Shown piece after piece: positions 1 to 25,217 of a stretch of 62,161 nucleotides of DNA. This DNA is from Chitinophagales bacterium (GTDB taxonomy: Bacteria; Bacteroidota; Bacteroidia; Chitinophagales; Chitinophagaceae), in contig JAATGJ010000015.1 of assembly GCA_015654695.1 (NCBI GenBank), forward strand, positions 1 to 62,161. The letters are read 5' to 3'. A program made the position numbers and the translations under genes. How positions within the stretch are numbered: the stretch's first letter is position 1; the number at the start of each line of letters is the position of its first letter. The notes below the pieces were generated by a model. The model saw only the letters and a program-made list of their open reading frames with translations, had not been told where the DNA came from and searched no databases.

Positions 1-939
1 CTGCTACTGTCAGGTATTGTAGTTTTTATAGTTATTGTTTTTTTGCTCTATAGAAATACCCGGCACAGGAAAAAAACGAATGAAACTTTGCGACAGCGAA
101 ATGAAAAAATTGAAAATACCCTACATCAATTAAGATCCAGCCAGGCTCAGCTTATCCAATCCGAAAAAATGGCTTCATTGGGAGAGCTTACCGCCGGCAT
201 AGCCCATGAAATACAAAACCCGTTGAATTTTGTAAATAATTTTAGTGAAGTAAATAGGGAACTTATTGAAGAGCTCAAAAGTGAAAAGTCAAAAGTCAAA
301 AGTGCAAGGGATGAAGAACTTGAAAGTCAATTACTGAATGACATTGAAAAAAATCTTGAAAAGATACTACACCATGGCAAAAGAGCCGATGCGATTGTAA
401 AAGGTATGCTGCAGCATAGCCGTAGTAGCAGCGGTACAAAAGAACCAACCGATATTAATAAACTGGCCGATGAATATTTGAGGTTAGCTTATCATGGCTT
501 AAGAGCAAAAGATAAAACATTCAATGCTACCTTGAAAACTGATTATGATGAAAGCATTGGTAACATCAACATTATTCCGCAGGATACCGGGAGGGTGATC
601 CTTAATTTGATTACTAACGCCTTTTATGCGGTAACAGAGAAGAAAAAACATGCTTTGGCAAACTCAGCAGGTGAGGGCGGCTATGAACCAACAGTCTCAG
701 TAAGTACAAAAAAAGTTAGTGATAAGGTTTTGATTTCTATAAAAGACAATGGCAATGGTATTTCACAGAAAGTATTAGACAAAATATTTCAACCCTTTTT
801 TACCACCAAACCAACAGGGCAGGGAACAGGATTGGGTTTATCCTTAGCGTATGATATTGTAAAAGCACATGGCGGTGAGTTGAAAGTGGAAACAAAAGAA
901 GGAAACGGCAGTACATTTATTATACAGATACCAACATAG
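1..939 (+). CDS. Sensor histidine kinase, 5' end outside the window
   Basis: The frame is open from the first base, so the gene begins upstream and the first visible residues are the end of a membrane helix (about residues 1-16 of the visible part) followed by the YRNTRHRKK basic stop-transfer. Then come a short coiled coil, a HisKA dimerisation domain with the phospho-accepting His at visible residue 69 (AHEIQNPL) and a HATPase_c domain with N-box (NLITNAF), G1 (DNGNG) and G2 (GTGLGL). The layout after the helix matches the TPR kinases just downstream, so a periplasmic TPR sensor is the likely missing part; this is inference. The segment KSEKSKVKSAR in the HisKA hairpin comes from a run of GTCAAAA repeats not found in the paralogs. 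The next kinase starts 2 bp after the stop. Confidence 0.9.
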   Translation: MLLSGIVVFIVIVFLLYRNTRHRKKTNETLRQRNEKIENTLHQLRSSQAQLIQSEKMASLGELTAGIAHEIQNPLNFVNNFSEVNRELIEELKSEKSKVKSARDEELESQLLNDIEKNLEKILHHGKRADAIVKGMLQHSRSSSGTKEPTDINKLADEYLRLAYHGLRAKDKTFNATLKTDYDESIGNINIIPQDTGRVILNLITNAFYAVTEKKKHALANSAGEGGYEPTVSVSTKKVSDKVLISIKDNGNGISQKVLDKIFQPFFTTKPTGQGTGLGLSLAYDIVKAHGGELKVETKEGNGSTFIIQIPT

Positions 940-941
940 TA

Positions 942-2897
942 ATGATAAGTAAATTTATATTCTTTATACTGCTTTTAACCGGATGCTGCAAAGGCTTTTC
1001 GCAAACCAGGCCGGCAATTGACAGTTTATACCGCCAGTTAACTATTGCAAAAGACGATACCAGCCGGATCAATGCAATGATAGGTTTATGCATCCAATAT
1101 CGTTTGGGCAATTCCGACTCTGCTATTTTTTATGGTGAACAGGCTTTTCAATTGTCACAAAAAATTAATTACCCAACCGGTGAAATCCTTGCCCTGTCTT
1201 TTATGGGCCTGACAATAGTGCAATTAGGCGATTTACCAAAGGCACTTGAAATGGGATTCAAAGCATTACAAACGGCCAAATCAAATAACCTGGAAAATAT
1301 TACCTCGCCGACCCTGAATCATCTCGGTGAAGTTTATCTCATACTAAAAGACTATCCCAAAGCTTTATATTATTTTGAAAAGCAAAAGAACCTTTATGAA
1401 ACAATTGAAATAAATGAAGGATTCGGTTATGCCCTGTATGATTTAGGAAATGTGTATGAGGAAATGAATCAGCTCGATTCGGCCCGTCATTATGAACTAC
1501 AGGCTTATGAATTCTTCCGCAAAAGTGATCGTGAAGAACCGCTGGTGTTTAAAACACTGGGTAATATAGAAATGAAATCCGGAAAGCCCGTAAAGGCATT
1601 AAGTTATTACAAACAAAGTCTTCAGATCGCCATTCAAAATAACGAACGAAGGGCTACGTGTTATGCGTATAATAAACTGGCAGAATTTTTTAAAAAAATA
1701 AATCAACCGGATTCGGCTATCTATTATGCCCAAAAAGGACTGGATGAATCAACAGCAATTGCGCAAAAGAAATCATTACAGGAAGCAGCAGCTTTATTGT
1801 CCGGGCTCTATGAACAAAAAGATGCAAAAGAATCATTGCGCTATCTTAAAATAGCAGATGCCTATAAAGACAGCTTGTTTGGTGCAGGCAACCTGCAGGC
1901 CATTCAGGTAATTATCAACCAGCAGGCAGAACATCAAAAAGAAATTGAGGATTCCAGGACAAGGTATCAAAACAATTTAAAATTATATGCCTTGTTTGCC
2001 GGCCTTGGAATACTTCTGCTGGTAGCCGTGATCCTTTACCGGAATAACAGGCAAAAACAAAAAGCAAATAAAATTTTAGAAGCAACTCTTGGTAATTTAA
2101 AATCTGCACAATCCCAGCTCATCCAATCAGAAAAAATGGCTTCGCTCGGCGAACTCACGGCAGGCATTGCACACGAAATTCAAAACCCTTTAAACTTTGT
2201 CAACAACTTTAGTGAAGTAAGCAATGAACTGATTGATGAAATAATGGAAGAAGTGTCGAAAGGAAATTATGAAGAAGTAAAAGCCTTAGCGGGTGATGTA
2301 AAACAAAATTTGGAAAAAATAAATCATCATGGTAAACGTGCTGATGGAATAGTAAAAGGCATGTTGCAGCACAGCCGCAGCAGCAGTGGTCAAAAGGAGC
2401 CAACTAATATAAATGCGTTAGCAGATGAATATTTAAGATTGGCTTATCATGGACTGAGAGCAAAGGACAAATCATTCAATGCAACATTGAAAACAGATTA
2501 TGATGAAAATACAGGAAGCATCAGTATCATTCCGCAGGATATTGGAAGAGTAATACTTAATTTAATAAATAATGCTTTTTATGCAGTAGATGAAAAGAAA
2601 AAACAAATGGGTGATGGTTACAAACCAACAGTTTCAGTAAATACAAAAAAAGTTGGTGATAAACCCGGTAACTATCGGATTTTAATTGCTGTAAAAGACA
2701 ACGGCAACGGCATTCCTCAAAAAGTATTGGACAAAATATTTCAACCCTTCTTTACCACCAAACCAACAGGACAGGGAACAGGATTGGGCTTATCCTTAGC
2801 GTATGATATTGTAAAAGCACATGGCGGTGGGCTGAAAGTGGAAACGAAAGAAGGAGAAGGAAGTGAATTCATTATTCAATTACCCATTAATCCATAG
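942..2897 (+). CDS. TPR-containing sensor histidine kinase
   Basis: A membrane kinase that should autophosphorylate on His411 and pass phosphate to a receiver. It has a signal peptide (about 1-20, ending near FSQT), a periplasmic array of TPR-like helical hairpins (about 25-330; repeats such as ALYYFEKQ, DSARHYELQA, DSAIYYAQKG), one membrane helix (about 348-366), a coiled coil, HisKA with AHEIQNPL and HATPase_c with NLINNAF, DNGNG and GTGLGL. TPR sensors of this layout bind peptides or protein partners in other systems; no ligand can be read here. It starts 2 bp after the preceding kinase and ends 6 bp before the next, so it is probably translated from the same message. Confidence 0.93.
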   Translation: MISKFIFFILLLTGCCKGFSQTRPAIDSLYRQLTIAKDDTSRINAMIGLCIQYRLGNSDSAIFYGEQAFQLSQKINYPTGEILALSFMGLTIVQLGDLPKALEMGFKALQTAKSNNLENITSPTLNHLGEVYLILKDYPKALYYFEKQKNLYETIEINEGFGYALYDLGNVYEEMNQLDSARHYELQAYEFFRKSDREEPLVFKTLGNIEMKSGKPVKALSYYKQSLQIAIQNNERRATCYAYNKLAEFFKKINQPDSAIYYAQKGLDESTAIAQKKSLQEAAALLSGLYEQKDAKESLRYLKIADAYKDSLFGAGNLQAIQVIINQQAEHQKEIEDSRTRYQNNLKLYALFAGLGILLLVAVILYRNNRQKQKANKILEATLGNLKSAQSQLIQSEKMASLGELTAGIAHEIQNPLNFVNNFSEVSNELIDEIMEEVSKGNYEEVKALAGDVKQNLEKINHHGKRADGIVKGMLQHSRSSSGQKEPTNINALADEYLRLAYHGLRAKDKSFNATLKTDYDENTGSISIIPQDIGRVILNLINNAFYAVDEKKKQMGDGYKPTVSVNTKKVGDKPGNYRILIAVKDNGNGIPQKVLDKIFQPFFTTKPTGQGTGLGLSLAYDIVKAHGGGLKVETKEGEGSEFIIQLPINP

Positions 2898-2903
2898 AAA
2901 GTA

Positions 2904-4946
2904 ATGAGATCCTTTTTAAAAATAGTGGTATTGTTGTTATTTCCTGCTTTCGGCTATTCACAATTAAGTAAGATAGATAGTTTAAAAGCTGCTTTTATTA
3001 TTGCACCGGAAGGTCCCTTGCGGTACAAAGCCGCCAGTAATATTTATTTTTACTACCAGGAATTAAACAGGGATTCTGCCTTGTTTTATACAGAGCAGCA
3101 ATTAGTCAATGCGAAAAAGAAGCAAAACAGAATTGCTGAAGGTGTCGCCACTGTTAACAAAAGCTATCAATTGATGGGTTTAGGCAAATATGCGGATGCA
3201 CTTAAATGCTTGCAACAGGCTTTTGTCATTGCAGAAGATAAAAGCGCAGAGAAAGAAGATCAATGGGAGTATTTTCTTACCCCTTACACGGGTAATAACA
3301 GGTTGTTACTGCTTTCCTATACGCACCACATGTATGCACTGCTGATGCTGCAAACCGGAAACCTGGAACAGCAGATTTTGCATTTCAAAATAGCCGGCCA
3401 AATGGGAAAGGAAATAAATTATACACCCCGTATCCAGTTGGCCTACCTGAATCTTGGCCAAAGCTACCTGGAAGCAAATAAACCCGATTCGGCGCTTTAC
3501 TATGAAAAAGAAGCAGAACGAATAGCGCTGCAGGCAAATGACACAACCTTCAGGCTTGCCAAAACTTATCTGGGTGCAATTGAAATCCAACTGGGAGATA
3601 TTTATAAAGCACTGAATAACCAGGCGCTGTCATTGGCCTACTATTATAAAAGCCTGCAAACAACAACTGAGAATAATAACCGTATCAGTTTATGCAGGGT
3701 TTGCTTACGGCTTAGCAGGTACCATCTTGGTAAGGGTAATAAAGACTCTTCGCTCTATTATTCACTATGGAACCTGGCCATTTTACAAACACTGGGAATG
3801 GTTACAGGACCGGAAACAAATCTTGGTACCGGCTATGAAAATGTTTATCTCAGCTATAAACTCAATGATCAATTTGACAGTGCATTCAAATACCAGGGAC
3901 TTGCGTTACTCACTAAAGACAGCCTGGCTAAAGTCAGGATAAAGAACCTGGTAGAATTTCAAAAACTTACTTACGCTGAACAGCTTCGTTTACAAAACCT
4001 GGAAAAGGAAAAAGTAGTGTACCAGAACAAGGTCAGGACTTATTTTTTATTAGCGGGAATTGGTGTTTTGTTATTGCTGGCCATTATTTTTTACAGAAAT
4101 AACAGGCAGAAACATAAAGCCAAAATTAAAATTGAACAGGCTTATGATAATCTGAAAGCAACACAGCTACAGCTTATCCAGTCCGAAAAAATGGCTTCGC
4201 TGGGAGAACTGACTGCAGGCATAGCACATGAAATTCAAAACCCGTTGAACTTTGTCAATAATTTCAGTGAAGTAAGTAATGAACTCATAGATGAAATGAA
4301 GCATGAATTATCAAAAGCCAATTACGCAGACGCCAATGCAATTGCAGATGATGTAAAACAAAATTTAGAAAAAATAAATCATCACGGCAAACGTGCCGAT
4401 GCAATTGTAAAAGGAATGTTGCAGCACAGCCAAAGCAGCGGTGGTGTAAAAGAACCAACAGATATTAATAAACTGGCGGATGAATATTTACGATTAGCCT
4501 ACCATGGTTTAAGAGCAAAAGATAAATCATTCAACGCTGCATTAAAAACAGATTATGACGAAACAATTGGCGACATCAATATTATTCCGCAGGACATTGG
4601 GAAGGTGATCCTGAATTTAATTACGAATGCATTTTATGCAGCAGATGAAAAAAAGAAGTCAGGAATTGAAGGATACGAGCCAACAGTTTCAGTAAGCACA
4701 AAAAAAAGGAATGAAAAATCCGATAGCTGCCGGATTGAAATAAGTGTAAAAGATAATGGCAACGGTATGCCCCAAAAAGTGCTGGATAAAATATTTCAAC
4801 CCTTCTTTACCACCAAACCAACGGGGCAGGGAACGGGTTTGGGTTTATCGTTAAGTTATGATATTGTAAAAGCACATGGTGGCGGGATAAAAGTGGAGAG
4901 TAAAGAAGGAGAAGGGTCGGAGTTTATTGTCAGGATACCGGCTTAA
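2904..4946 (+). CDS. TPR-containing sensor histidine kinase
   Basis: Second complete TPR kinase of the array. Signal peptide about 1-19, TPR-like periplasmic region about 25-370, membrane helix about 379-397 followed by YRNNRQKHK, then HisKA with phospho-acceptor His442 and HATPase_c with NLITNAF, DNGNG and GTGLGL. The kinase half is nearly the same as in its neighbours while the TPR half is clearly diverged, which points to shared output and different inputs. A 119-bp gap follows, with a promoter-like box before the next gene, so a first transcription unit may end here. Confidence 0.93.
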   Translation: MRSFLKIVVLLLFPAFGYSQLSKIDSLKAAFIIAPEGPLRYKAASNIYFYYQELNRDSALFYTEQQLVNAKKKQNRIAEGVATVNKSYQLMGLGKYADALKCLQQAFVIAEDKSAEKEDQWEYFLTPYTGNNRLLLLSYTHHMYALLMLQTGNLEQQILHFKIAGQMGKEINYTPRIQLAYLNLGQSYLEANKPDSALYYEKEAERIALQANDTTFRLAKTYLGAIEIQLGDIYKALNNQALSLAYYYKSLQTTTENNNRISLCRVCLRLSRYHLGKGNKDSSLYYSLWNLAILQTLGMVTGPETNLGTGYENVYLSYKLNDQFDSAFKYQGLALLTKDSLAKVRIKNLVEFQKLTYAEQLRLQNLEKEKVVYQNKVRTYFLLAGIGVLLLLAIIFYRNNRQKHKAKIKIEQAYDNLKATQLQLIQSEKMASLGELTAGIAHEIQNPLNFVNNFSEVSNELIDEMKHELSKANYADANAIADDVKQNLEKINHHGKRADAIVKGMLQHSQSSGGVKEPTDINKLADEYLRLAYHGLRAKDKSFNAALKTDYDETIGDINIIPQDIGKVILNLITNAFYAADEKKKSGIEGYEPTVSVSTKKRNEKSDSCRIEISVKDNGNGMPQKVLDKIFQPFFTTKPTGQGTGLGLSLSYDIVKAHGGGIKVESKEGEGSEFIVRIPA

Positions 4947-5028
4947 TGATATGCTTGTATTCATGACTTTATGGGAAAGATGCCTTTCACAACCGGCTTT
5001 CCAGGAAGTAGTAATATTTTTTTCTTTG

Positions 5029-5061
5029 TTTGAACTATCGTTTTGTGCATATATAATTTTC
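5029..5061 (+). promoter_or_regulatory. Candidate Bacteroidota-type promoter
   Basis: TTTG at 5029-5032, then 21 bp, then TAATTTTC at 5054-5061, a 7 of 8 match to the TAnnTTTG box. It lies in the 119-bp gap between two kinases. The downstream ATG at 5066 would be only a few bases from the expected transcription start, so either the message is nearly leaderless or translation begins at the in-frame TTG at 5111. Confidence 0.4.
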
Positions 5062-5065
5062 TTTC

Positions 5066-8000
5066 ATGCTATACATTTTTATCAAAAACACAAACTGGCA
5101 GGGAAATAAGTTGTTTCTTCTCTTTTTATTGACTATACAGGTAATGCTTGTCCGGGCACAGTTAGCGCCCAACAACTTTTATTTAAATAACGAAATAAGG
5201 TTTGAGCGGTTAGCTATCGAAAACGGGCTTTCCAATAATATAACTTTTGGGATGATGCAGGATAAAAAAGGCTTCATGTGGTTTGCCACTTTTGATGCCT
5301 TAATTAAATATGACGGCTATACATTAACCCGGTATCAGAACAATCCACAAGACACCAATAGCCTGGGTGATAATATTGTTATGGCGGTATTTGAAGATCA
5401 TACCGGGCTAATATGGGTCGGTACTGCCGGTGGTGGAGGTATTAATTCATTTGATCCGCAGACTGCGCAATGGAAGCGATATCCGCACGATCCAAAAAAT
5501 GCCAATAGCATGGGTAAGGGGTCCATAGAAGGAATTGCGGAAGATCGTAGCGGCATGCTTTGGTTTGGAAGTACAGATGGTCTTACCCGTTATAATCCAA
5601 AAACAAATTTGTTTACTGTGTTTGTAAACAATCCAAAGGACAAATTTAGTTTAAGTAATAACCGGGTTTATTCAATAGTGGAAGATAAAGCAGGGATGCT
5701 TTGGGTTGGAACAGATGGTGGTGTAAATCTTTTTGATCCCAAAAAAGAACATTTCTACATGGTTGGAGGAGATTTCAATGATTCTTTAGAGCTTAAAAAA
5801 AGTATTATTCATCATATCTATAAAGACAAACAGGGTCTGTTGTGGTTAAGCTCGTTTGACCATGGGGTGTTTGTGATAGATCCGGAATCCAAAAAATGTA
5901 TTGCGTATTATCATCACGATCCCAAAAATCCTAATAGTATCGGGAGGGATGTTGTGTTTGCTATCACAGAGGACCTGGCAGGCAGCTATTGGATGTCCAC
6001 AGAAGGAGGCTTATACCATTTTAATCCGCAAACCAAAGTGTTTACCCTTTACGAGAATAAAAGTTATCTGCCAAAAACAGAAACAAAAGGTCATATTATT
6101 AAGACAGATCATGCTGGCTTGATTTGGATTGGTACCATGGGAAGAGGAATTATATATTTTTCACCACAGCAAAGAAAATTCCGCCGCTATCTTAATGATG
6201 AAGCAAGCCTGGAATTTGGATTAGGCACCAATAGAGTAAAATCAATTTTTAACTCATCAGATAACCAGCTATATGTGGCCACCAGCCAGAATCTTTTAAG
6301 GTTTAACCATGGTAAAGATAAATTTGAAGAAGTGTGGCAATTAAAAACAATAAAAAGAAATAATGAGAAGTTTATTTTAACAGCAGCCTGCGAAGAAAAA
6401 CAAGGTATCTTCTGGTTAGGCACCGACCAGGCTGGAATTATCAGGTATAATAGTCACACACGCAAAGTAAACTTTCTGCAAAAGAATTCATTGGATACAG
6501 CAAGCCTTTTTGATAATGGGGTTGATGTTCTTTACAGGGATCGGAGCGGCAGGTTGTGGGTAGGTACAGAGGGAGGTAATCTGCAGTGGTATGATTCCGT
6601 TACAAAAAAATTTGTTCGCTACCGGTATCTTTCAGCCAATGAAGAAGCGCCGCCGAACGCAGGTATCAGGTTCATTTATGAAGACAGCAAAGGTGATCTA
6701 TGGGTAGGCATCAAAGCCTTTCACCTGGATTTTGGTGGAGATGGTTTATATCATATTAACCTGAAAACGGGAGACATTAAGCATTACAAACACCAACCCG
6801 GTGTACCGGGCAGCCTGAGCAATAATAGTGTTACCTGTTTCTATGAGGACAGGAAAGGCATTTTCTGGATAGGCACGTATGGTGGCGGCCTGAACAGCCT
6901 CGATCCTATATCCGGAAAAATTACAGTCTATACCAAAGAAAACGGTTTATTATCGAATACAGTCGGGGGTGTAGCAAGCGATGGAGCGGGCAATCTTTGG
7001 GTAAATACAGACGAGGGAATTACCCGTTTCAACAGCACTACATTGAACACTAAACAGTTTGGCCTGGCAGATGGATTAGCCACCTCTCCCTTAGGTGTTG
7101 AGTCAGAAGATTACAATTCATATTTAAGCATAGAAAGCAAAGAAGGTTCTATTTTCTTTGGCAGCAACAATGGCTACAATGGATTAATCGCATTTGATCC
7201 GCGATTGATCCGGGAAAACAACTTTCAACCCACTGTAGCCATTACTCAATTTAAAGTCTTTGATAGAAGTTACCCGGTTGCCGGTAAAGAAATTTCACTC
7301 TCGTACAACCAGAATTTCTTTGACTTTGAGTTTGCCGCGTTGAGCTATCTCTCTTCCGGGAAAAACCAGTACGCCTATAAACTGGAAGGGATGGACAATG
7401 ATTGGGTAAACAACGGCACCCGGCGGACGGCCCATTATACAAACGTGCCACCCGGCAAACATGTTTTTCGGGTTAAGGGCTCTAACAACGATGGCGTATG
7501 GAATGAGCAAGGCACGGAATTAACCATTATCATACATCCGCCCTGGTGGCGAACCTGGTGGGCCTATACACTCTACGGACTGGTGATTATTGGCAGTATA
7601 TGGGCCTTTATCTATTACCGGTCCAGGAATCTGGTCCGGCAAAAACGATTGCTGGAAAAACAGGTAGTTGAACGTACAGGAGAAGTAGTGCATCAGAAAG
7701 AAGCATTGCAAACCTCCTTAGAAAATTTAAAAGCTACCCAGGCCCAGCTCATCCAGTCAGAAAAAATGGCTTCGCTTGGCGCACTTACCGCCGGCATCGC
7801 ACATGAAATACAAAACCCTTTAAACTTCGTGAATAATTTCTCTGATGTAAATACAGAATTGATTGATGAGGCGCGGGTAGAAATTGAAAAAGGCAATACT
7901 GAAGATGTGAAAGCCATATTGACTGATATAAAAGACAATGAACAAAAAATCAACCATCACGGCAAACGTGCTGATGCCATTGTAAAAGGTATGCTTCAAC

Positions 8001-8515
8001 ATAGCCGTACAAATACTGGCCATAAAGAATCAACAGATATTAATAAACTGGCGGATGAATACCTCCGCCTCTCCTACCAGGGCCTTCGTGCAAAAGACAA
8101 AAATTTTAATGCGATAATGAAAACGGACTTAGATAATGGCATTGGTAAAATAAATATCATTCCGCAGGATATCGGAAGGGTATTATTGAATTTATACAAC
8201 AATGCGTTTTATGCGGTGAACGAAAAAAAGAAATCATCGCCTGGCAACTATGAACCAACCGTTTCAGTAAGCACAAAAAAAATAAATGGTATCGCCGAGA
8301 TAAGAGTTGCTGATAATGGCAACGGGATTCCTCAAAAAGTACTGGATAAAATATTTCAGCCCTTTTTTACCACCAAACCAACAGGGCAGGGAACAGGATT
8401 GGGTTTATCGTTAGCTTATGATATTGTAAAAGCCCATGGTGGAGTGTTAAAAGTGGAAACAAATGAGGGAGAAGGTTCAGTGTTTACTATTATATTAAAT
8501 GAACCCGCTAAATAA
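5066..8515 (+). CDS. Two-component propeller (Reg_prop/Y_Y_Y) sensor histidine kinase
   Basis: A large periplasmic-sensor kinase. After a signal peptide (hydrophobic FLLFLLTIQVML, cleavage after VRAQ) come about 14 propeller repeats of the GxxWxGT type (for example GLIWVGT, GMLWVGT, GIFWIGT), enough for two seven-bladed beta-propellers (about 40-720). A Y_Y_Y domain follows (about 765-825, LPPG-like turn VPPGKHVF), then PPWWRTWWAY and a membrane helix (about 830-850), a coiled coil, HisKA with His913 and HATPase_c. Most relatives with this sensor in Bacteroidota are hybrid regulators with a receiver and AraC domain that sense glycan fragments; this one ends after the kinase, so it must use a separate receiver. 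The start is the first ATG; a TTG at 5111 would give a more typical signal peptide length. Confidence 0.93.
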   Translation: MLYIFIKNTNWQGNKLFLLFLLTIQVMLVRAQLAPNNFYLNNEIRFERLAIENGLSNNITFGMMQDKKGFMWFATFDALIKYDGYTLTRYQNNPQDTNSLGDNIVMAVFEDHTGLIWVGTAGGGGINSFDPQTAQWKRYPHDPKNANSMGKGSIEGIAEDRSGMLWFGSTDGLTRYNPKTNLFTVFVNNPKDKFSLSNNRVYSIVEDKAGMLWVGTDGGVNLFDPKKEHFYMVGGDFNDSLELKKSIIHHIYKDKQGLLWLSSFDHGVFVIDPESKKCIAYYHHDPKNPNSIGRDVVFAITEDLAGSYWMSTEGGLYHFNPQTKVFTLYENKSYLPKTETKGHIIKTDHAGLIWIGTMGRGIIYFSPQQRKFRRYLNDEASLEFGLGTNRVKSIFNSSDNQLYVATSQNLLRFNHGKDKFEEVWQLKTIKRNNEKFILTAACEEKQGIFWLGTDQAGIIRYNSHTRKVNFLQKNSLDTASLFDNGVDVLYRDRSGRLWVGTEGGNLQWYDSVTKKFVRYRYLSANEEAPPNAGIRFIYEDSKGDLWVGIKAFHLDFGGDGLYHINLKTGDIKHYKHQPGVPGSLSNNSVTCFYEDRKGIFWIGTYGGGLNSLDPISGKITVYTKENGLLSNTVGGVASDGAGNLWVNTDEGITRFNSTTLNTKQFGLADGLATSPLGVESEDYNSYLSIESKEGSIFFGSNNGYNGLIAFDPRLIRENNFQPTVAITQFKVFDRSYPVAGKEISLSYNQNFFDFEFAALSYLSSGKNQYAYKLEGMDNDWVNNGTRRTAHYTNVPPGKHVFRVKGSNNDGVWNEQGTELTIIIHPPWWRTWWAYTLYGLVIIGSIWAFIYYRSRNLVRQKRLLEKQVVERTGEVVHQKEALQTSLENLKATQAQLIQSEKMASLGALTAGIAHEIQNPLNFVNNFSDVNTELIDEARVEIEKGNTEDVKAILTDIKDNEQKINHHGKRADAIVKGMLQHSRTNTGHKESTDINKLADEYLRLSYQGLRAKDKNFNAIMKTDLDNGIGKINIIPQDIGRVLLNLYNNAFYAVNEKKKSSPGNYEPTVSVSTKKINGIAEIRVADNGNGIPQKVLDKIFQPFFTTKPTGQGTGLGLSLAYDIVKAHGGVLKVETNEGEGSVFTIILNEPAK

Positions 8516-8524
8516 TACAGTACG

Positions 8525-10498: not shown

Positions 10499-10506
10499 AT
10501 TTATTC

Positions 10507-14232: not shown

Positions 14233-14237
14233 CCGGC

Positions 14238-16220
14238 ATGATTAAAACATTCATATTCATTATTTTCTTTCTGGGGTGCTGTATCACATGCCCCGGGCAA
14301 GCAGACAGCGCAACACCTCCTGAGATTATTATCCTGAAGCAACAGTTATCCAATGCTGTCAATGATACCAGCCGCATACTGATCATGGCCGATCTGGGTT
14401 ATGTGTACGCATATTTAAACTCCGATTCTTCTTTTTTATATGGCCAGCAGGCTTTAAAAAAATCTGATGAGATCAACTTTCAGAGGGGCCGTGCCAATGC
14501 ATTAGCAGGTTTGGGAAATATGTATTTAAGAGTGGATGATTACGCGAAGGGATTGGAATACCAGTTAAAAGCAATGCAGGTATCGGAGCAATATGGCTTT
14601 GAAAGAGAGAAAGCGATATCCTATATAGAATTGGCTTACACTTATGATGCTTTATCAGATACTTCCAAAGCCCTTGCTTATTATAAACGATCCCGGGATA
14701 TTTATAATAAAATACCATTCGATGTATTTAAAAAAGTAGAAAGCGGAATGGGCCTGGCCCAATTATATATGAAAATCGGCCGCAATGATTCGGCGTTAGC
14801 TATTCTTCAAAACTTATATAATGATCCGGGTAATCCTGCAATGCGACAGGCGATCCTCCAGATTATGGGTGATCTCTATACCAAACTGCAGGATTACCCC
14901 ACCGCATTAAAATGCTTATATGATGCTATCTCACTTGATTTGAAAGGGAATGATTTGTTTTCCCTGGCATGGGCCTTCAACAGTGCAGCTACGCTTTATA
15001 AAAACATTCACCAGGCAGATTCCTGTATTTTTTATGCAAAAAAAAGTCTTTCTATCGCAGAGAAGCTGAATTTAAAAGCACTCCTGGCATCCAACAGCCT
15101 GATGCTGTCCGAGCAATATGAAACGATCAATTCAACTGATGCACTTTACTACCGCAAAATGTATGATGATGCAATTGAAAAAATTTATGGCGCGGATAAA
15201 GTGCTGGCGCTGCAAAAAACACTGGCAGAAGAACAGGAAAGACAGCGACAACTTGAAGCAGGCCGTGTAGCTAGTGAAAATAAACGCAGGCAATATCTTT
15301 TTTGGAGCAGCCTGGGCATTCTCGGATTGATTGCCCTGTTACTTTACCGGAATAATCTGCAGCAAAGAAAGGCAAAGAAAATAGTAGAAGAAAAAAACAA
15401 AGTAATAGAAAAAGCTCTTTCTGATCTGAAATCAACCCAATCCCAGCTTATACAATCAGAAAAAATGGCAAGCCTTGGAGAACTTACGGCAGGCATAGCC
15501 CATGAAATTCAAAACCCGTTGAACTTCGTCAATAATTTTTCAGAAGTAAATAAGGAATTATTGGTGGAAATGAATGGTGAAATTGTAAAAGGGAATTACG
15601 ATGAAGTAAAAGCGATTGCTAAAGATGTTATTGACAATGAAGAAAAAATAAATCATCACGGCAAAAGAGCCGATGCCATTGTAAAAGGCATGTTGCAGCA
15701 CAGCCGCAGCAGCAGTGGGCAAAAAGAATCCACCCATATCAATGCGTTAGCTGATGAATATTTGCGGTTGGCTTATCACGGACTTCGGGCAAAGGATAAA
15801 TCATTTAACGCGACAATGAAAACTGATTTTGATGAAAGTATTGGAAACACCAATATCATTCCGCAGGATATTGGCAGGGCCTTTCTTAATTTAATAACGA
15901 ATGCATTTTATGCGGTAACGGAAAAGAAAAAACAGGCAGGTGATGGATACGAACCAACCATTTCAATGAGTACAAAAATAATAAATGATAAACCCGATGG
16001 CCCCCGGATAGAAGTGCGGGTTGGAGACAATGGAAACGGCATTCCACAAAAAGTATTGGATAAAATTTTTCAACCTTTCTTTACCACCAAACCCACCGGG
16101 CAGGGAACGGGTTTGGGTTTGTCATTAAGTTATGATATTGTAAAAGCGCATGGTGGAGAGTTGAAAGTAGAAACAAAAGAGGGGGAAGGAGCGGAGTTTA
16201 TTATTACTTTGCCTGCCTGA
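14238..16220 (+). CDS. TPR-containing sensor histidine kinase
   Basis: Signal peptide about 1-20 (CCITCPGQA; a lipobox is possible but not clear), TPR-like region about 25-340 with recognisable hairpins (DYAKGLEYQLKAMQ, DSCIFYAKKSL), a basic and acidic helix before the membrane segment (about 352-372), long coiled coil, HisKA with His422 and HATPase_c. The kinase half closely follows the preceding propeller kinase (NKELLVEM, DVIDNEEKINHHG), suggesting the two share a recent common origin or have exchanged sequence. It closes the tight block that started at 5066. Confidence 0.93.
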   Translation: MIKTFIFIIFFLGCCITCPGQADSATPPEIIILKQQLSNAVNDTSRILIMADLGYVYAYLNSDSSFLYGQQALKKSDEINFQRGRANALAGLGNMYLRVDDYAKGLEYQLKAMQVSEQYGFEREKAISYIELAYTYDALSDTSKALAYYKRSRDIYNKIPFDVFKKVESGMGLAQLYMKIGRNDSALAILQNLYNDPGNPAMRQAILQIMGDLYTKLQDYPTALKCLYDAISLDLKGNDLFSLAWAFNSAATLYKNIHQADSCIFYAKKSLSIAEKLNLKALLASNSLMLSEQYETINSTDALYYRKMYDDAIEKIYGADKVLALQKTLAEEQERQRQLEAGRVASENKRRQYLFWSSLGILGLIALLLYRNNLQQRKAKKIVEEKNKVIEKALSDLKSTQSQLIQSEKMASLGELTAGIAHEIQNPLNFVNNFSEVNKELLVEMNGEIVKGNYDEVKAIAKDVIDNEEKINHHGKRADAIVKGMLQHSRSSSGQKESTHINALADEYLRLAYHGLRAKDKSFNATMKTDFDESIGNTNIIPQDIGRAFLNLITNAFYAVTEKKKQAGDGYEPTISMSTKIINDKPDGPRIEVRVGDNGNGIPQKVLDKIFQPFFTTKPTGQGTGLGLSLSYDIVKAHGGELKVETKEGEGAEFIITLPA

Positions 16221-16312
16221 TGAAATAGTATGTGGAAAATAAATTAAGGTCGTAAAGATTGCCATATATTGTTTCCATCAGTTATTGTATCACCTGGTTA
16301 GAACAGCGTATT

Positions 16313-17695
16313 ATGTTCCTGGAGTTTATATTACTTATTATTCTTTTTCGCTTCCTCAGAAAAAACCTGCAGGCAACAGGCCTGGCGCCTCAATGGGACA
16401 GGTTTCTTTTTGGTGGTATGCTTGTGTCCATCGCTTTTTTAGTGATGGATACAACTGTGCATGCCAGCAGGCCGGTGTTATTCTGGGTGGCGCAGGCGAT
16501 GTTTTTTACACTTATTTATTTAGCCTATTATAAAAAGGAATTTCTTCCGGCCAGGCCGGTTATTTACGCGGTTTTACCACTTATAGCCGTTTCTTTTATC
16601 AGCAGGCTGGTGCGGATAATTGATAGTACGTTTCATGAAAAATGGGACAACGTTTTTGATACAGCCATTTTTTTTGCCATAATATGGATGGTGGCCATGC
16701 TTATTATGAATACCAGGCAACGAAAGGCGCTGGAAAAAGAACGGCTAAAGACACTCGAAAAGGAAAAGGAAATCAAAGTGACCGAGACATTAAAAGCCGC
16801 CCTGGAAGTACAGGTTACAGAACGCACAGCCGCGCTCACCCTGCAGAAGGAAGAACTGCAACGGACATTGGATGAACTAAAATCCACCCAAACCCAGCTC
16901 ATACACTCTGAAAAAATGGCTTCACTCGGTGAACTCACCGCAGGTATTGCCCATGAAATACAAAACCCGTTAAACTTCGTCAATAATTTTTCGGAAGTAA
17001 ATAAAGAATTGCTGGTAGAAATGAAAGAGGAGATGGACAAAGGAAATCTTGAAGATGCAAAAGCCCTGGCAAATGATATAATAGATAATGAGGAAAAAAT
17101 AAATCACCATGGCAAAAGGGCCGATGCTATTGTAAAAGGGATGCTGCAGCATAGCCGGAGCAGCAGTGGTGTAAAAGAACCAACGGATATCAATGCATTA
17201 GCTGATGAATATCTGAGATTAGCTTATCATGGTTTGCGGGCAAAAGACAAATCATTCAATGCAACCATGAAAACAGATTTTGATGAAACGATTGGTAACA
17301 TCAATATCATTCCGCAGGATATGGGAAGGGTGATTCTCAATTTAATAACTAATGCGTTTTATGCAGTCTCTATGCCCTCTCCCGAAAAGATCGGGACAGG
17401 CGCCGAAGCGGGATTCCGGGACCCTGACTATAAACACAGTCCTACTATTTGGGTGAGCACAAAAAAGACAGGCAACAAAATTTTTATTACTGTAAAAGAT
17501 AATGGCCCGGGAATACCAAAAAAAATACTGGACAAAATATTTCAACCCTTCTTTACTACCAAACCCACCGGGCAGGGAACGGGTTTGGGTTTATCGCTGA
17601 GTTATGATATTGTAAAAGCACATGGCGGTGAGTTGAAAGTAAATACCAAAGAAGGAGAAGGAAGTGAATTTATTATTTTATTACCTGTTGTCTGA
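16313..17695 (+). CDS. Membrane sensor histidine kinase with short multi-pass sensor
   Basis: Unlike its neighbours it has no periplasmic domain: about four hydrophobic segments (about 1-140; FILLIILFRF, LVSIAFLVM, AMFFTLIYLAYY, AIFFAIIWMVAML) lead into a long coiled coil, HisKA with His214 and HATPase_c with NLITNAF, DNGPG and GTGLGL. A membrane or lipid-borne signal, or a partner protein, is therefore likely; this is inference. I take the ATG at 16313 as start; an in-frame TTG at 16259 directly after a stop would add 18 residues. The loop from about residue 353 (SMPSPEKIGTGAEAG) is encoded by a palindrome TCCCGA/TCGGGA at 17380-17396. 92 bp separate it from the previous stop. Confidence 0.9.
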   Translation: MFLEFILLIILFRFLRKNLQATGLAPQWDRFLFGGMLVSIAFLVMDTTVHASRPVLFWVAQAMFFTLIYLAYYKKEFLPARPVIYAVLPLIAVSFISRLVRIIDSTFHEKWDNVFDTAIFFAIIWMVAMLIMNTRQRKALEKERLKTLEKEKEIKVTETLKAALEVQVTERTAALTLQKEELQRTLDELKSTQTQLIHSEKMASLGELTAGIAHEIQNPLNFVNNFSEVNKELLVEMKEEMDKGNLEDAKALANDIIDNEEKINHHGKRADAIVKGMLQHSRSSSGVKEPTDINALADEYLRLAYHGLRAKDKSFNATMKTDFDETIGNINIIPQDMGRVILNLITNAFYAVSMPSPEKIGTGAEAGFRDPDYKHSPTIWVSTKKTGNKIFITVKDNGPGIPKKILDKIFQPFFTTKPTGQGTGLGLSLSYDIVKAHGGELKVNTKEGEGSEFIILLPVV

Positions 17696-17796
17696 ATCAC
17701 GCAGGAACGGCATTTACTATTGAATTACCTAAAAATAATTAATCGGATTTCGTTTTTTAATAAATCAATCCTGAAATAGAATCAGTATTTTTAGCC

Positions 17797-20700
17797 ATGC
17801 CAACCACGACCGTTCACCATCGTAACATATCTGTGTTTTTGGGGGTTATGCTATTGTGTTTTATTGGTTGCAAAAACTCCCATGATACTGTTCCTTTTCC
17901 TGCAGCAGAAAGTGAAATTGACCAACCGTTGACCAAACCATTTAGATTCAGCGAAGCGCAAACTATAGAATGGGTTGTCACCGATACCGACAGTATAAAG
18001 AGTTTACCTGAAAGGAGATTTGATTTTAATAAGCTTCCCTCAAAACCATTTGATATCGGGGAACCGCAGCCGCTGTTTAAACCGGTTGATCAGCAAAAAT
18101 TCGACTGGAACAGTTTATCAGACACAGTATTTAACCCGGATAAATTCCCCACGCAAAAACTAAAATTCAAAACCACCCTGCTCGGTGCTCCTAAAATCAC
18201 CAAAGCCGGTTTACCTGCTTTAAAAGCAGGCACTGCCCGCGGTATCATGGAAGCAGGCAATGGCCTGGGCCTGCCCGGCAACGGAAGATGTTTTTTACAG
18301 GATAAATACGGAATGTTCTGGATAGGAACAGACAAAGGACTTTGCCGCTATGATGGAGAAAATATGGAAGTGTATTCCACCGCACAAGGTTTAACAGATG
18401 CTAATATTTATGCGATAACAGAAGATAAGAAAGAACAGATTTGGATTGGCACGGGTAACGGCGAGATCTACACCCTCAACAGGAAGGCAGGTTTATTGAA
18501 ACAGGTAATAGATACTTTCAGGCACGGAACGATCGCAACGATGATAACTGATAAAAAAGGCCAAATATGGTTGGCGCGGATCGGTTCGGCCGTATATACC
18601 ATCAATGAGGAAAAAGAAACGATTAAACAGTTTGGCCCCGCTGAAGGGCTTTCTCATCTTTTTGTAGTGGAAATGATGCAGGACAAACAAGGTCTTATAT
18701 GGATCGGCTCAAGCAACGGTATCAATGTGATCGATCCGGAAGCCGGTATCAATAAAAGAATAAAAAAAAGCGATGGGTTAAGCACCAGTACGAATGTTGG
18801 CCTATTACAGGATAAGCTTGGCAGAATATGGGTCGGCGGCGACAGCGGTGTAAACATTATTAATACCACAGAAAAAACAATAAGAAAAATAGGAAGAGAG
18901 CAGGGATTGGGAGTTCCTGCTATAGCAGCTTTGGCACAGGATAAAGAAGGAAAAATATGGATGAGCACCCAGACAGGGCTTGTTTATTTTTTTGATGAAG
19001 AAAACAGCCTGCTTGAAAAAATGAATGTCGCTCCCGGTTTGAATAACATCATTTATAGCCTTTTTGTAAATAATGAAGGGCAAATATGGATGGGTACCAC
19101 AGTAGGAGGATGTTACTTTATTGATCCACGTCATGGCAGGCCCGGAAACTTCACTAAAGCCGACGGACTTGGCGACAACAATGTTTGGGCTTTGCTGGAA
19201 GATACAAAGGGGTTGGTCTGGATGGGAACATATAACGGAATAGACGTTTATAACCCGGCTAAAAAAACTATTAAACATATCGGCAAAGAACAGGGCTTAT
19301 ATGAAAGAAACTCTCACTTATTACAGGACAGCAAAGGACAAATCTGGTCTTGTGGAAGCGCATTTGGCATAAGTATTATTGATATAGAAAAAGGAACCAT
19401 CAAATATTTGAGCAAAGCCCAGGGCTTGGGAAATAATAACTGCGCTTGCCTGCTGGAAGATAATAAAGGGCAAATATGGGTAAGCAGCGGTGACGGTGAA
19501 GTGCGGGTAATTTCCCTGGAAAATAAAATGATAAAGAAATTTAAAGATTTGCCTGGTGCGAAAGGTGACAACCCGATTTTTTCATTGAGGAAAGACAGTA
19601 AAGGGCGGGTATGGGTAGGCAGTTTGGGAGACGGTGCTTATTTAATAGATGCTGATGGAAAAACAATAAAACGCCTGGATGCTGCACAGGGTTTAATAGG
19701 CAATGAAATTACCACTTTTACGGATGGGAAAGATGGTAAAATGTGGATTGGCACAACAAAAGGAATAGAGGTGGCCGATCTTGAGAATAATACGCTTACC
19801 ACTTTCACTACCAATGAAGGACTGGCAGCTCCGGGCGTATGGACACTGAATGAAATAAACGGTAGAATATATGCAGGAACGTCTAACGGGTTAACCATCC
19901 TTACTCCTGCACAAAAAGAAAATGATCAAAAACCAATATGGAACGCTGCTACTTACGGTAAAGCACAGGGGTTAACGCATGTTGACTTTGCTGAAAATAG
20001 TTCAATGGTTTTTAAAAACCAGTTATGGGCAGGTGTAGACAACCAGATACTTAATGTTTTTAATGAGCCTAAGCCAGATACGGTTATTCCATCTCCTTTT
20101 ATTACTGGTATTAATATCCTGGATAAGGTACAGGCTTTTGCTGACAGGCCTTTCATCGAAAATGAAATAAAGAACATTGACACTGTTTGGAAAACCGAAA
20201 AGGATTCTTTCTATTTAAATGAGCAATTACCAAAAGACACCGGCTACCTGCAAAAAAACGAAATTAGCTGGGACAGTACCAGTGGCCCTTACCTGTTGCC
20301 AGTGAACCTTCGTCTGCCCTATCATCAAAATTATCTCAGTTTCACTTTTACAGGGAACCATCTCAGCAATCCTGATAAAGCTCTCTATCGTTATATACTG
20401 GAAGGCATTGATAAAAACTGGAGTCCCGTTTCCGAAAAAAATTTTAGTGAAAATTACCGCGATCTCCCACCGGGTAATTACACATTCAAAGTATCCAGTC
20501 AAGGAATGAATGGTTTGTGGAGTGCGCCTGCAGAATTTAGTTTTACCATTACTCCACCCTGGTGGAAAACATGGTGGGCCTATCTCTTTTATGTCGCTGC
20601 CGTGATAGCCATTATCAGTGTTTACATAAGATACCGTTCGGGAGCCCTGAAAAAACACAACCAGCTGCTGGAAGAAAAAGTAATGAGCCGTACAAATGAA

Positions 20701-21501
20701 CTACGCAAGTCGTTAAATGATTTGAGGGAAACGCAAAATCAATTAGTGCAATCTGAAAAGATGGCAAGCCTTGGTGAACTAACGGCAGGCATTGCTCATG
20801 AAATACAAAACCCGTTAAACTTTATCAATAACTTTTCTGAAGTGAATACAGAACTGATTGCTGAAATGAAAGAAGAAATTGAAAAAGGGAATTTGGAAGA
20901 GGTAAAAAATATTGCCGGTGACATAGCGGCCAATGAAGAAAAAATAAACCATCATGGTAAACGGGCGGATGGTATAGTAAAAGGAATGCTGCAGCACAGC
21001 CGTACCGGCAGCCGGCAAAAAGAACCTGCCAATATCAATACTATTGCTGATGAATATTTACGACTGGCCTATCATGGTTTGAGGGCGAAGGATAAATCAT
21101 TTAATGCAATCATGAAAACTGATTTTGATAAAAGTATTGGAAATATCAATATCATTCCGCAGGACATAGGAAGGGTCGTTCTTAATTTAATCACCAATGC
21201 GTTTTACGCAGTGACAGAAAAAAAGAAACAATCATCAGGGGAGTATGAACCGACAGTTTCAGTGAGTACAAAAAAGATCAATGGCAAAGTAGAGATAATA
21301 GTAAAAGACAACGGTAACGGTATCCCGCAAAAAGTATTGGAAAAGATCTTTCAGCCTTTCTTTACCACCAAACCCACCGGTGAAGGAACAGGATTAGGAT
21401 TATCTTTAAGTTATGATATTATCAAAGCGCATAATGGCGAATTAAAAGTGGAAACAAAGGAAGGAGAAGGAGCAACATTTATTATTATTTTACCGCAATA
21501 A
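17797..21501 (+). CDS. Propeller/Y_Y_Y sensor histidine kinase with lipoprotein signal
   Basis: Lipobox FIGC at about residue 25, then the same kind of N-terminal repeat region seen in the kinase at 10507 (KPFRFSEAQTIEW, KPFDIGEPQPLFK, FPTQKLKFKT; about 40-135). About 14 propeller repeats follow (about 150-780; GQIWIGT-like motifs are very regular), then Y_Y_Y (about 850-915), PPWWKTWWAY, membrane helix about 925-945, HisKA with His1001 and HATPase_c with NLITNAF, DNGNG and GTGLGL (TTKPTGEGTG). It is preceded by 101 bp without a gene and followed after 15 bp by the receiver gene, so it is the kinase most tightly tied to the output proteins. Confidence 0.93.
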   Translation: MPTTTVHHRNISVFLGVMLLCFIGCKNSHDTVPFPAAESEIDQPLTKPFRFSEAQTIEWVVTDTDSIKSLPERRFDFNKLPSKPFDIGEPQPLFKPVDQQKFDWNSLSDTVFNPDKFPTQKLKFKTTLLGAPKITKAGLPALKAGTARGIMEAGNGLGLPGNGRCFLQDKYGMFWIGTDKGLCRYDGENMEVYSTAQGLTDANIYAITEDKKEQIWIGTGNGEIYTLNRKAGLLKQVIDTFRHGTIATMITDKKGQIWLARIGSAVYTINEEKETIKQFGPAEGLSHLFVVEMMQDKQGLIWIGSSNGINVIDPEAGINKRIKKSDGLSTSTNVGLLQDKLGRIWVGGDSGVNIINTTEKTIRKIGREQGLGVPAIAALAQDKEGKIWMSTQTGLVYFFDEENSLLEKMNVAPGLNNIIYSLFVNNEGQIWMGTTVGGCYFIDPRHGRPGNFTKADGLGDNNVWALLEDTKGLVWMGTYNGIDVYNPAKKTIKHIGKEQGLYERNSHLLQDSKGQIWSCGSAFGISIIDIEKGTIKYLSKAQGLGNNNCACLLEDNKGQIWVSSGDGEVRVISLENKMIKKFKDLPGAKGDNPIFSLRKDSKGRVWVGSLGDGAYLIDADGKTIKRLDAAQGLIGNEITTFTDGKDGKMWIGTTKGIEVADLENNTLTTFTTNEGLAAPGVWTLNEINGRIYAGTSNGLTILTPAQKENDQKPIWNAATYGKAQGLTHVDFAENSSMVFKNQLWAGVDNQILNVFNEPKPDTVIPSPFITGINILDKVQAFADRPFIENEIKNIDTVWKTEKDSFYLNEQLPKDTGYLQKNEISWDSTSGPYLLPVNLRLPYHQNYLSFTFTGNHLSNPDKALYRYILEGIDKNWSPVSEKNFSENYRDLPPGNYTFKVSSQGMNGLWSAPAEFSFTITPPWWKTWWAYLFYVAAVIAIISVYIRYRSGALKKHNQLLEEKVMSRTNELRKSLNDLRETQNQLVQSEKMASLGELTAGIAHEIQNPLNFINNFSEVNTELIAEMKEEIEKGNLEEVKNIAGDIAANEEKINHHGKRADGIVKGMLQHSRTGSRQKEPANINTIADEYLRLAYHGLRAKDKSFNAIMKTDFDKSIGNINIIPQDIGRVVLNLITNAFYAVTEKKKQSSGEYEPTVSVSTKKINGKVEIIVKDNGNGIPQKVLEKIFQPFFTTKPTGEGTGLGLSLSYDIIKAHNGELKVETKEGEGATFIIILPQ

Positions 21502-21516
21502 ACAATAAATCAGGTT

Positions 21517-21891
21517 ATGAAAATTTTAGTAGTAGATGATGAAAAAGATGTCCAGGTCCTTTTTGAGCAACGGTTCAGAAAAGAAATAAAAAATAATGAA
21601 ATGCAATTTATTTTCGCCTTCTCAGGTGAAGACGCCCTCACCTATCTTAACGGACATGAACATGAAGCGGTATTAATATTATCTGATATTAATATGCCGG
21701 GTATGAGTGGCCTTGAACTGCTGGGGCATATAAAACAAAAATACCATAAACCACCTCCCATGGTAATGATGATAACGGCATACGGTGATGCTGAAAACTT
21801 CAATACCGCCAAAGAGCTGGGTGCTGATGATTTTTTAACCAAGCCGGTTGACTTTACTGCGTTAAAGGAAAAGCTTAAAATGATAAACTGA
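21517..21891 (+). CDS. Stand-alone response regulator receiver protein
   Basis: A CheY-like single receiver domain of 124 residues with nothing after it. The acidic pair is at Asp7-Asp8, the phospho-acceptor at Asp57 ([11 protein letters not shown]), the switch Thr in MITAYGD and the conserved Lys in LTKPVDF. Such proteins act by protein contact or as phosphate shuttles or sinks. It follows the nine kinases and its stop codon overlaps the start of the receiver-cyclase gene by one base (TGATG), so the two products are probably made together. No DNA-binding domain is present. Confidence 0.93.
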
Positions 21892-22931
21892 TGGCAAAAA
21901 TTTTAGTGGCGGATGATGAGACAGACCTGGAAATGCTGATCAAACAAAAATTCCGTCAGAAGATACGGGAGCAGCAATACGAATTCATTTTCGCTGTCAA
22001 TGGTAATGATGCGCTGGATAAAATTGTGCAGCATCCTGACATAGATATTGTGCTGAGCGATATCAATATGCCTGAAATGGATGGGCTGACCCTGCTTAGC
22101 CGCCTCAGCGAATCAAGCCCCCTGATCAAATCAGTGATCGTTTCCGCGTATGGCGATATGGAAAATATCCGGACCGCCATGAACCGGGGCGCTTTCGATT
22201 TTATTACCAAGCCTATCAATTTTGAAGACCTGTCACTAACGATGGAAAAAACCATCCGGCATGTTGTTCATATCCGGGAAACGCTGAAAGCCATCAAAGA
22301 AAATAATATCCTGAAGATGTACGTGGACGAAACAGTATTGAACTTTATGGGCAGCCGTGAGTTTGAAACATCATTGATGCTGAATGAAACCGTAGAAGCT
22401 ACAGTTGTTTTTATTGATATTTGCAGCTTTACTTCCATCAGCGAAAACGAATCACCGGATACCGTAGTGAAGTTGCTGAATAAGTATTTTGATGTGATGG
22501 TAAAGGAGATCATTGCGCAGGGAGGTTATATTGATAAATTTATCGGTGATGCCATCATGGCCGTTTTCCGTGGCAATTATCACCTGGACAGGGCCATTGA
22601 TGCCAGCCTCGCTGTACGAACACAAATAGACAGGTTGCCGGCCAGTTCAGAAAATGTTTCCTTTACCCCCAAAGTATCCATAGGTATCAACTCTGGCGAA
22701 ATGATCTCTGGCAATATCGGTTCAGCCAACCTGCGCCGGTTAGATTATACAGTAATTGGTGATGCCGTAAACATAGCACAGCGGCTGCAATCTGCTGCTA
22801 AAGAAGGCCAGATCATTATTAATGAAGGCACTTACGAAAAAGTAAAGGAATCATTCAATTGCCGCAAAGTAGGTGAAGTAAACCTGAAAAATAAATCCAA
22901 CCCGATGATCATATATGAAGTGATGGATTGA
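21891..22931 (+). CDS. Response regulator with class III adenylate cyclase domain
   Basis: Residues 1-120 form a receiver (acidic Asp8-Asp9, phospho-acceptor Asp57, switch Ser86, Lys in ITKPINF); about 120-165 are a helical linker; 166-346 are a class III nucleotide cyclase. Metal-binding Asp176 (FIDICSF) and Asp220 (IGDAIMAVF) are present, as are the adenine-selecting pair Lys216 (YIDKFIGD) and Asp285 (RLDYTVIGD) and the transition-state Asn294 and Arg298 (NIAQRL). All catalytic residues are therefore present and ATP is the expected substrate, giving cAMP on phosphorylation. It is the last gene of the kinase array and the only enzymatic output visible there. Confidence 0.93.
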
Positions 22932-22952
22932 ATAAAATCAATCACCTGTTTT

Positions 22953-22983
22953 TTTGCATGGGTGGCTTTCATAAATACTTTCA
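22953..22983 (+). promoter_or_regulatory. Candidate Bacteroidota-type promoter
   Basis: TTTG at 22953-22956, 19 bp spacer, then TACTTTCA at 22976-22983, a partial match (6 of 8) to TAnnTTTG. It lies 13 bp before the ATG of the acylase gene and would separate this gene from the kinase array. Confidence 0.35.
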
Positions 22984-22996
22984 ATTTTTTTGATCC

Positions 22997-25180: not shown

Positions 25181-25217
25181 TTCGCCAGGTCAGTTAACAC
25201 TTATTTAAAACAACGCA

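Follow-up and report, generated by a model that had tools for sequence, protein, structure and literature searches.

The window analyzed here, a stretch of 62,161 nucleotides of Chitinophagales bacterium DNA, opens with a row of histidine kinase genes that leads into one lone receiver and one receiver fused to a nucleotidyl cyclase. Its first base is position 1 of contig C71 and falls inside the first kinase gene; the genome carrying the array is a 5.42-Mb assembly of 187 contigs, 98.84% complete. The open reading frame (ORF) listing gives nine kinase ORFs (K1–K9), all on the same strand, followed by the lone receiver (REC1) and the receiver–cyclase (REC-AC), whose genes overlap by one base (21891), which is the arrangement that an original prediction, made from the sequence of the window alone, had described.

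K1: 1–939, plus strand, histidine kinase truncated at the contig end, C-terminal half present (transmembrane segment, DHp, ATPase)
K2: 942–2897, plus strand, TPR sensor histidine kinase (TPR above the Pfam curated cut-off)
K3: 2904–4946, plus strand, sensor histidine kinase of TPR-like type (TPR listed, but under the Pfam cut-off)
K4: 5066–8515, plus strand, Reg_prop propeller and Y_Y_Y histidine kinase
K5: 8525–10498, plus strand, sensor histidine kinase of TPR-like type (TPR listed, but under the Pfam cut-off)
K6: 10507–14232, plus strand, Reg_prop propeller and Y_Y_Y histidine kinase
K7: 14238–16220, plus strand, TPR sensor histidine kinase (TPR above the Pfam curated cut-off)
K8: 16259–17695, plus strand, histidine kinase with a hydrophobic N-terminus, apparently multi-pass (judged by eye)
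K9: 17797–21501, plus strand, Reg_prop propeller and Y_Y_Y histidine kinase
REC1: 21517–21891, plus strand, single-domain receiver with a long alpha1 signature
REC-AC: 21891–22931, plus strand, receiver fused to a class III nucleotidyl cyclase with ATP-type residues

Domain organization of the kinase row

The genes of the row are separated by 2–38 bases, except for 119 bases before K4, 101 bases before K9, and the REC1/REC-AC overlap. A scan of positions 4800–23200 yielded a promoter-like site at 5030–5057, before K4, which we regard as an unproven candidate, and no plus-strand terminator-like sites in the gaps between genes, both counts lying within two standard deviations of those of shuffled sequences. 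Pfam lists HATPase_c in all nine window kinases and HisKA (E ≤ 0.001) in eight; K4 has no listed HisKA match, yet its H-box is present. Neither Response_reg nor a DNA-binding domain is listed by Pfam in any of the nine, in agreement with the earlier claim that these kinases carry no receiver or DNA-binding output of their own. REC1 consists of Response_reg alone, and REC-AC of Response_reg and Guanylate_cyc. In NCBIfam scans of four proteins, the 25 best models listed for each all stayed below their cut-offs. The listed start of K8 is TTG, with an in-frame ATG further downstream. The sensor parts are of the TPR, propeller, and membrane types originally named; the description of the propeller as 14-repeat did not hold, as a strict motif gave 10, 8, and 9 blades, each a lower bound, in K4, K6, and K9, respectively.

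Probable continuation of the array on a second contig

With the K7 transmitter as query, twelve transmitters with at least 75% identity to K7 (query included) were found in the own genome, nine on C71 and three on contig C171; among full-length matches, the next one falls to 33% identity, and no further subfamily member of full length was detected. REC1 and REC-AC each occur once in this genome. Three kinases lie on C171 in reverse orientation, namely Ka (propeller), Kb (TPR), and Kc (2130 aa), and a TPR ORF without a transmitter runs off the contig end (1039–2), while C71 starts with a transmitter without a sensor. Since the C171 end and the C71 start match as halves of one TPR kinase, the N-terminal half of K1 is probably the open TPR ORF at C171:1039–2, and the array probably comprises twelve kinases, REC1, and REC-AC on one strand, spanning about 34.6 kb (34,562 bases in the sequence present, with the stretch between C171 and C71 missing). 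The count of nine kinases in the original prediction is thus correct for the window and is a lower bound for the total, because the window starts inside K1 and three further kinases sit on C171. Its three sensor types likewise do not exhaust the repertoire, as C171 adds a kinase of another build:

Kc: L058 (G000:C171) 7438–1046, minus strand, 2130 aa, SnoaL_3 followed by nine tandem modules of ~187 aa and a transmitter

The tandem modules of Kc have no GAF match in Pfam at E ≤ 1e-5; the AlphaFold model of one module (predicted local distance difference test score, pLDDT, 94) led Foldseek to GAF domains, with a best E of 5.4e-6 and a TM-score of about 0.5. In relatives, a motif count listing ORFs with two or more copies gave 14 ORFs with 2 to 12 Kc-type modules. 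No Response_reg is listed by Pfam in Kc (E ≤ 1e-5), Ka, Kb, or the TPR half on C171. In Bacteroidota, hybrid two-component systems (HTCS) combine sensor, kinase, receiver, and AraC DNA-binding domain within one protein; the array kinases differ from them in that neither Response_reg nor a helix-turn-helix domain is listed in them.

Directly before the first kinase of the array, a 47-aa transmitter fragment with 72% identity and one TAG lies on the minus strand at G000:C171 11670–11810, possibly the remnant of a thirteenth kinase. Such a fragment with a stop means that kinases may decay here, as would be expected if the array were a duplication relic with little function, and a variant in which the kinases mainly dephosphorylate REC-AC is also compatible with the sequence. 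We nevertheless consider both to be quite improbable, as the tested boxes are kept in all twelve full kinases, the gene spacing stays mostly at 2–38 bases with a maximum of 119 in the kinase row, and several Bacteroidota groups retain the output pair.

A docking signature common to the kinases and both receivers

The H, N, G1, F, and G2 boxes are intact in all twelve own transmitters, and no receiver is found in the same polypeptide, which classifies the array kinases as orthodox HisKA histidine kinases. At H+7, H+8, H+11, and H+12, which we take to be specificity positions, the residues are N, F, N, and F in 12/12 own and 107/107 sampled transmitters (own included). Measured from the phosphorylated His, alpha2 ends at a distance of 68 residues in eleven of the own kinases and 72 in K1. 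Of the eight window kinases for which Pfam lists HisKA, K7 and K9 match part of the profile only, and the match covers 78 to 86 residues in the other six; in an ordinary kinase of the same window (52414–53688), which adjoins an OmpR-type regulator (51715–52407, assigned by eye), it covers 65.

On the receiver side, alpha1 of REC1 and REC-AC reads D-x-x-x-L-x-x-Q-(R/K)-F-R, and by alignment it has four extra residues that occur in none of the 33 other own-genome receivers (matches at E ≤ 1e-5), to which this comparison was confined; the boundaries of three of these were widened to take in alpha1, and one further receiver of the window is among the 33. REC1 and REC-AC both have a spacing of 29 between the acidic pair and the conserved Gly, against 22–28 in the others (25 in 18 of them). 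The AlphaFold model of REC-AC, with block means of 64–91 in the receiver and a pLDDT below 50 in most of the cyclase part, was used for the position of alpha1 alone (residues 11–26). As the kinase hairpin and the receiver helix are both long, their interface could keep the pathway insulated from the other two-component systems of the cell.

The same signature bears on a hidden one-to-one pairing, in which each kinase would have its own receiver elsewhere and the row would reflect tandem duplication only. The genome does contain at least 33 other receivers, and one-to-one specificity is called the prevalent paradigm in PMC9765234. We judge such pairing to be highly improbable, however, as the long alpha1 is absent from all 33 of the other receivers compared, one set of docking residues is common to the twelve kinases, and the presence of the transmitter agrees with that of REC-AC in 191/195 family genomes.

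Conservation of the cyclase, co-occurrence, and gene order

The cyclase residues Asp176, Lys216, Asp220, Asp285, Asn294, and Arg298 were found at the positions originally given and are invariant in 33/33 REC-AC sequences, constituting the residue set of a class III adenylate cyclase. Among them, we assume two metal Asp, an adenine-type Lys/Asp pair, and a transition-state Asn/Arg pair. By sequence, the best match of REC-AC in the PDB is CyaB (3r5g). With this match and the invariant residues, cyclic AMP (cAMP) is the likely product of REC-AC.

In a family sample of 195 genomes (thresholds: REC-AC, E ≤ 1e-40; REC1, E ≤ 1e-30; transmitter, E ≤ 1e-75), REC-AC occurs in 44, REC1 in 46, and the transmitter in 48, the sets being nested in that order, and 147 genomes have none of the three. 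The transmitter and REC-AC are jointly present or jointly absent in 191 of the 195 (Fisher p 1.7e-39, a value that is uncorrected for kinship and too small because the family genomes are kin). At least seven genera (g1, g4, g9, g16, g22, g24, and g35) hold both positive and listed negative genomes, the status of g35 coming from the phylum sample described below, in which the transmitter and REC-AC were the parts searched.

REC1 lies directly 5′ of REC-AC in 33/33 first neighborhoods (the own genome and 32 relatives), and the two genes overlap in 32 of these by 1, 4, or 8 bases. The same order holds in 10 of 11 further genomes, giving 43/44 overall; in the exception, G012, a contig break splits REC-AC, leaving its start on the contig of REC1 and the remainder on another. 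Across the 32 relatives, the number of same-strand kinases adjoining this pair ranges from 0 to 10, with several runs ending at contig ends or at the 35-kb limit; transmitter counts were scored to a maximum of 12 per genome, so that counts of 12 are lower bounds. The gene-order comparison set as a test in the original prediction therefore came out as anticipated, the kinase number varying and the two output genes staying fixed.

Distribution beyond the family and the place of REC1

In a phylum sample of 296 genomes (REC-AC and transmitter both at E ≤ 1e-60), REC-AC was detected in 24 and the transmitter in 57. All 24 REC-AC genomes also have the transmitter; conversely, REC-AC accompanies the transmitter in 19 of 20 genomes inside the class and in 5 of 37 outside. 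Sequences with 61–80% identity to REC-AC occur in records titled Chitinophagaceae, Cyclobacteriaceae, Hymenobacter, Spirosoma, Mucilaginibacter, Algoriphagus, Seonamhaeicola, Lutimonas, and Saprospiraceae. Neighborhoods were taken in for 38 of 80 named loci, covering 22 of the 23 loci in this identity range (all but L180); ORF calling missed REC-AC itself at L133, L138, L141, L142, and L145. A family kinase ORF lies upstream in 22/22 of these loci, and REC1 was called in 20, that is, in all but those of Flavihumibacter soli and Hymenobacter edaphi. Among six alphaproteobacterial loci with REC-AC of 37–41% identity, five have a related kinase ORF upstream, and REC1 was called at none. The REC1/REC-AC output pair is thus kept across several Bacteroidota groups, and the cyclase version looks mainly Bacteroidota.

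Individual loci illustrate the range of layouts. Beside REC1/REC-AC, Pollutibacter soli (L123) has a kinase fragment and four kinase ORFs of full size. In Algoriphagus litoralis (L134, 2–11420), kinases alternate with three REC1-like genes before REC-AC, so that the number of REC1 genes varies too. The same layout with a different output occurs at two Scytonema loci (L146 and L147, 4508–12574): a related transmitter is carried by a kinase of 1823 aa, which is accompanied by a REC1-like gene and a receiver protein of 727 aa, for which Pfam gives receiver, PAS, and AAA_35 in the L146 copy. Receiver–SpoIIE proteins of Kapaibacterium (L154), KSB1 (L156), and a Bacteroidetes metagenome-assembled genome (L164) have receivers 47–63% identical to that of REC-AC over the matched stretch, and a kinase with a related transmitter adjoins in L154 and L156; they differ in having a SpoIIE phosphatase as the output and in kinase number, L154 and L156 having one such kinase call each and L164 having none.

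These layouts bear on the possibility that REC1 is the true hub, acting as a relay or binding partner in the manner of Spo0F or SdrG, with REC-AC reached via REC1 or being one of two outputs. REC1 is about as conserved as REC-AC, which it precedes and overlaps in nearly every family genome, and it stands among kinases without an adjacent REC-AC in G059; in A. litoralis, three REC1-like genes alternate with kinases before REC-AC. A precedent is the single-domain SdrG of Sphingomonas, which, according to PMC5898713, is phosphorylated by seven Pak kinases and feeds PhyR via the phosphotransferase PhyT. On the other side, no phosphotransferase domain is listed in the neighboring ORFs run through Pfam, no genome-wide search having been made, and a kinase is found upstream of REC-AC with no REC1 called in five of the six alphaproteobacterial loci and in F. 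soli, from which direct kinase-to-REC-AC transfer is probably possible. We therefore regard a hub role of REC1 as unlikely.

Histories of sensors and transmitters

For some sensors, orthology between genomes is clear, although the transmitters attached to them are not mutual best matches. For example, K3 and G158:4960 share 81% identity in the sensor and 74% in the transmitter, and the transmitters rank 39 and 12 of 106. In the pair G100:13366/G173:28759, third-position identity at conserved residues is 74% as far as the H-box and 56% beyond it (p 1.4e-5); the corresponding values for two control pairs from the same genomes are 79 and 71% (p 0.02), and 69 and 65% (p 0.32). No such break at the H-box was seen in the other four pairs (p 0.21 to 0.85). 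Exact DNA tracts of at least 60 bases are shared by 5/238 within-genome transmitter pairs, versus 0/5433 between genomes, and recent local duplication could be an alternative source of these tracts. Tree tests did not reject keeping two suspected pairs together, as under simple descent (approximately unbiased test, p 0.10 and 0.127), the transmitter tree being poorly resolved and its bootstrap not having settled. Taken from these sequence comparisons, an exchange of sensors and transmitters between kinases is likely. Simple concerted evolution was dropped as an explanation, the best transmitter match lying within the own genome for only 26/85 transmitters from genomes that have three or more.

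Search for a cAMP effector and neighboring genes

Eleven cyclic nucleotide (cNMP)-binding ORFs lie above the cut-off in the own genome. One of them has, by eye, the phosphate-binding cassette motif that we take to be canonical, and its homologues occur in 10/44 REC-AC genomes versus 8/151 others (p 0.0014). Being enriched with REC-AC but not obligatory, this ORF was set aside as a dedicated effector. In the 400-aa protein encoded at G000:C17 8900–10700 (L218), a receiver is joined to a cNMP-binding domain and, at the C-terminus, to a region that by eye resembles a DNA-binding domain.

Upstream of the array, an 870-aa protein with a class III cyclase domain at its N-terminus and an FGE-sulfatase domain is encoded on the minus strand of C171 (L058, 14562–11950), 318 bases ahead of the first kinase ORF. 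Downstream, a penicillin-amidase-family gene begins 65 bases 3′ of REC-AC and is followed by a beta-lactamase-family serine hydrolase (22997–26612, same strand); we place both outside the module.

Discussion

We consider the array likely to form a dedicated two-component pathway of the many-to-one type, in which interchangeable sensors lead to cAMP. The summation of many inputs into one cAMP signal that was originally proposed is supported in part, by the gene order, by the co-occurrence of the three parts, and by a common docking signature unlike that of the 33 other receivers. In the predicted mechanism, twelve kinases with different sensor heads (TPR, propeller, multi-pass membrane, and cytoplasmic tandem GAF-like) and one kind of transmitter would each autophosphorylate on the conserved His and pass the phosphoryl group to REC1 and to the receiver of REC-AC, both having the matching long alpha1. 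Phosphorylated REC-AC would then make cAMP, its level reporting the pooled activity of the kinases, and REC1 may compete for the same phosphate and thereby tune or buffer the signal.

Several observations weigh against this view. Four family genomes, in 290–730 contigs, have the transmitter without REC-AC (G038, G059, G074, and G190); two of them have REC1, which in G074 is near a contig end and in G059 is followed by a kinase instead of REC-AC. Two REC1 genes are present in each of G107 and G161, most family kinases lie away from REC-AC in G194, G045, and G193, and no same-strand kinase at all is upstream of REC1/REC-AC in G178 and G007. Outside the class, 32 of the 37 transmitter genomes of the phylum sample are without REC-AC (E ≤ 1e-60), and related receivers elsewhere carry SpoIIE, PAS and AAA_35, or kinase and AraC parts; kinase and cyclase are therefore not tied everywhere, and the kinase–receiver pairing is broader than the cyclase output. 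The join between C171 and C71 is one that we infer from the matching ends. No cAMP effector was pinned down among the eleven cNMP-binding ORFs of the own genome, and we found no reports of phosphotransfer or cyclase activity for any member.

More speculatively, the transmitter may be a standard plug, such that whatever sensor is recombined onto it would enter one private cAMP channel, insulated by the longer hairpin of the kinases and the correspondingly longer helix of the receivers. With a near-identical dimerization domain, the twelve kinases may form mixed dimers, in which case they would constitute a combinatorial receptor field instead of twelve separate inputs, and Kc, with its nine GAF-like modules, could be a sensor of the very cAMP to whose production it contributes. 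We offer this extended scheme tentatively and hold it to be doubtful as a whole.

Two-component pathways are usually described as insulated pairs, and duplication here seems to run the opposite way: the sensors diversify, while the docking and dimerization surfaces stay fixed, with one receiver/receiver–cyclase pair for all. The shared transmitter could be a ready socket for new sensors. The array is a natural test bed for the number of inputs per receiver, for the role of a lone receiver beside its twin, and for the cAMP effector in these bacteria.

The pathway predicted here is worth comparing with known convergent systems. The KinA–KinE phosphorelay of Bacillus subtilis ends in a DNA-binding regulator, whereas the array has a cyclase as the output and no relay protein was seen in it. 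The likeness, which here is read from the genes, is that several kinases feed one receiver, KinA–KinE converging on Spo0F according to PMC12471899. In the general stress response of Sphingomonas melonis, as described in PMC5898713, the seven Pak kinases likewise converge on two mutually similar receivers, the single-domain SdrG and the receiver–output protein PhyR, with the phosphotransferase PhyT; that system differs in its HWE/HisKA_2 kinases, scattered genes, output by sigma-factor mimicry, and PhyT, whereas the array has HisKA/HATPase_c kinases in one row and a Guanylate_cyc output, and thus lies outside the Pak pathway. Control of an adenylate cyclase by a histidine kinase has been proposed in cyanobacteria, where AphC is thought to phosphorylate and activate CyaC, raising cAMP (PMC4284465); one kinase is named there for CyaC, whereas twelve kinases of the array would share a short REC-AC paired with REC1. 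Among the matches listed from the open-licence literature, there was no description of a kinase row tied to a fixed REC1/REC-AC pair. Many-to-one signaling and kinase-controlled cyclases are each known, and it is their combination that is the new element.

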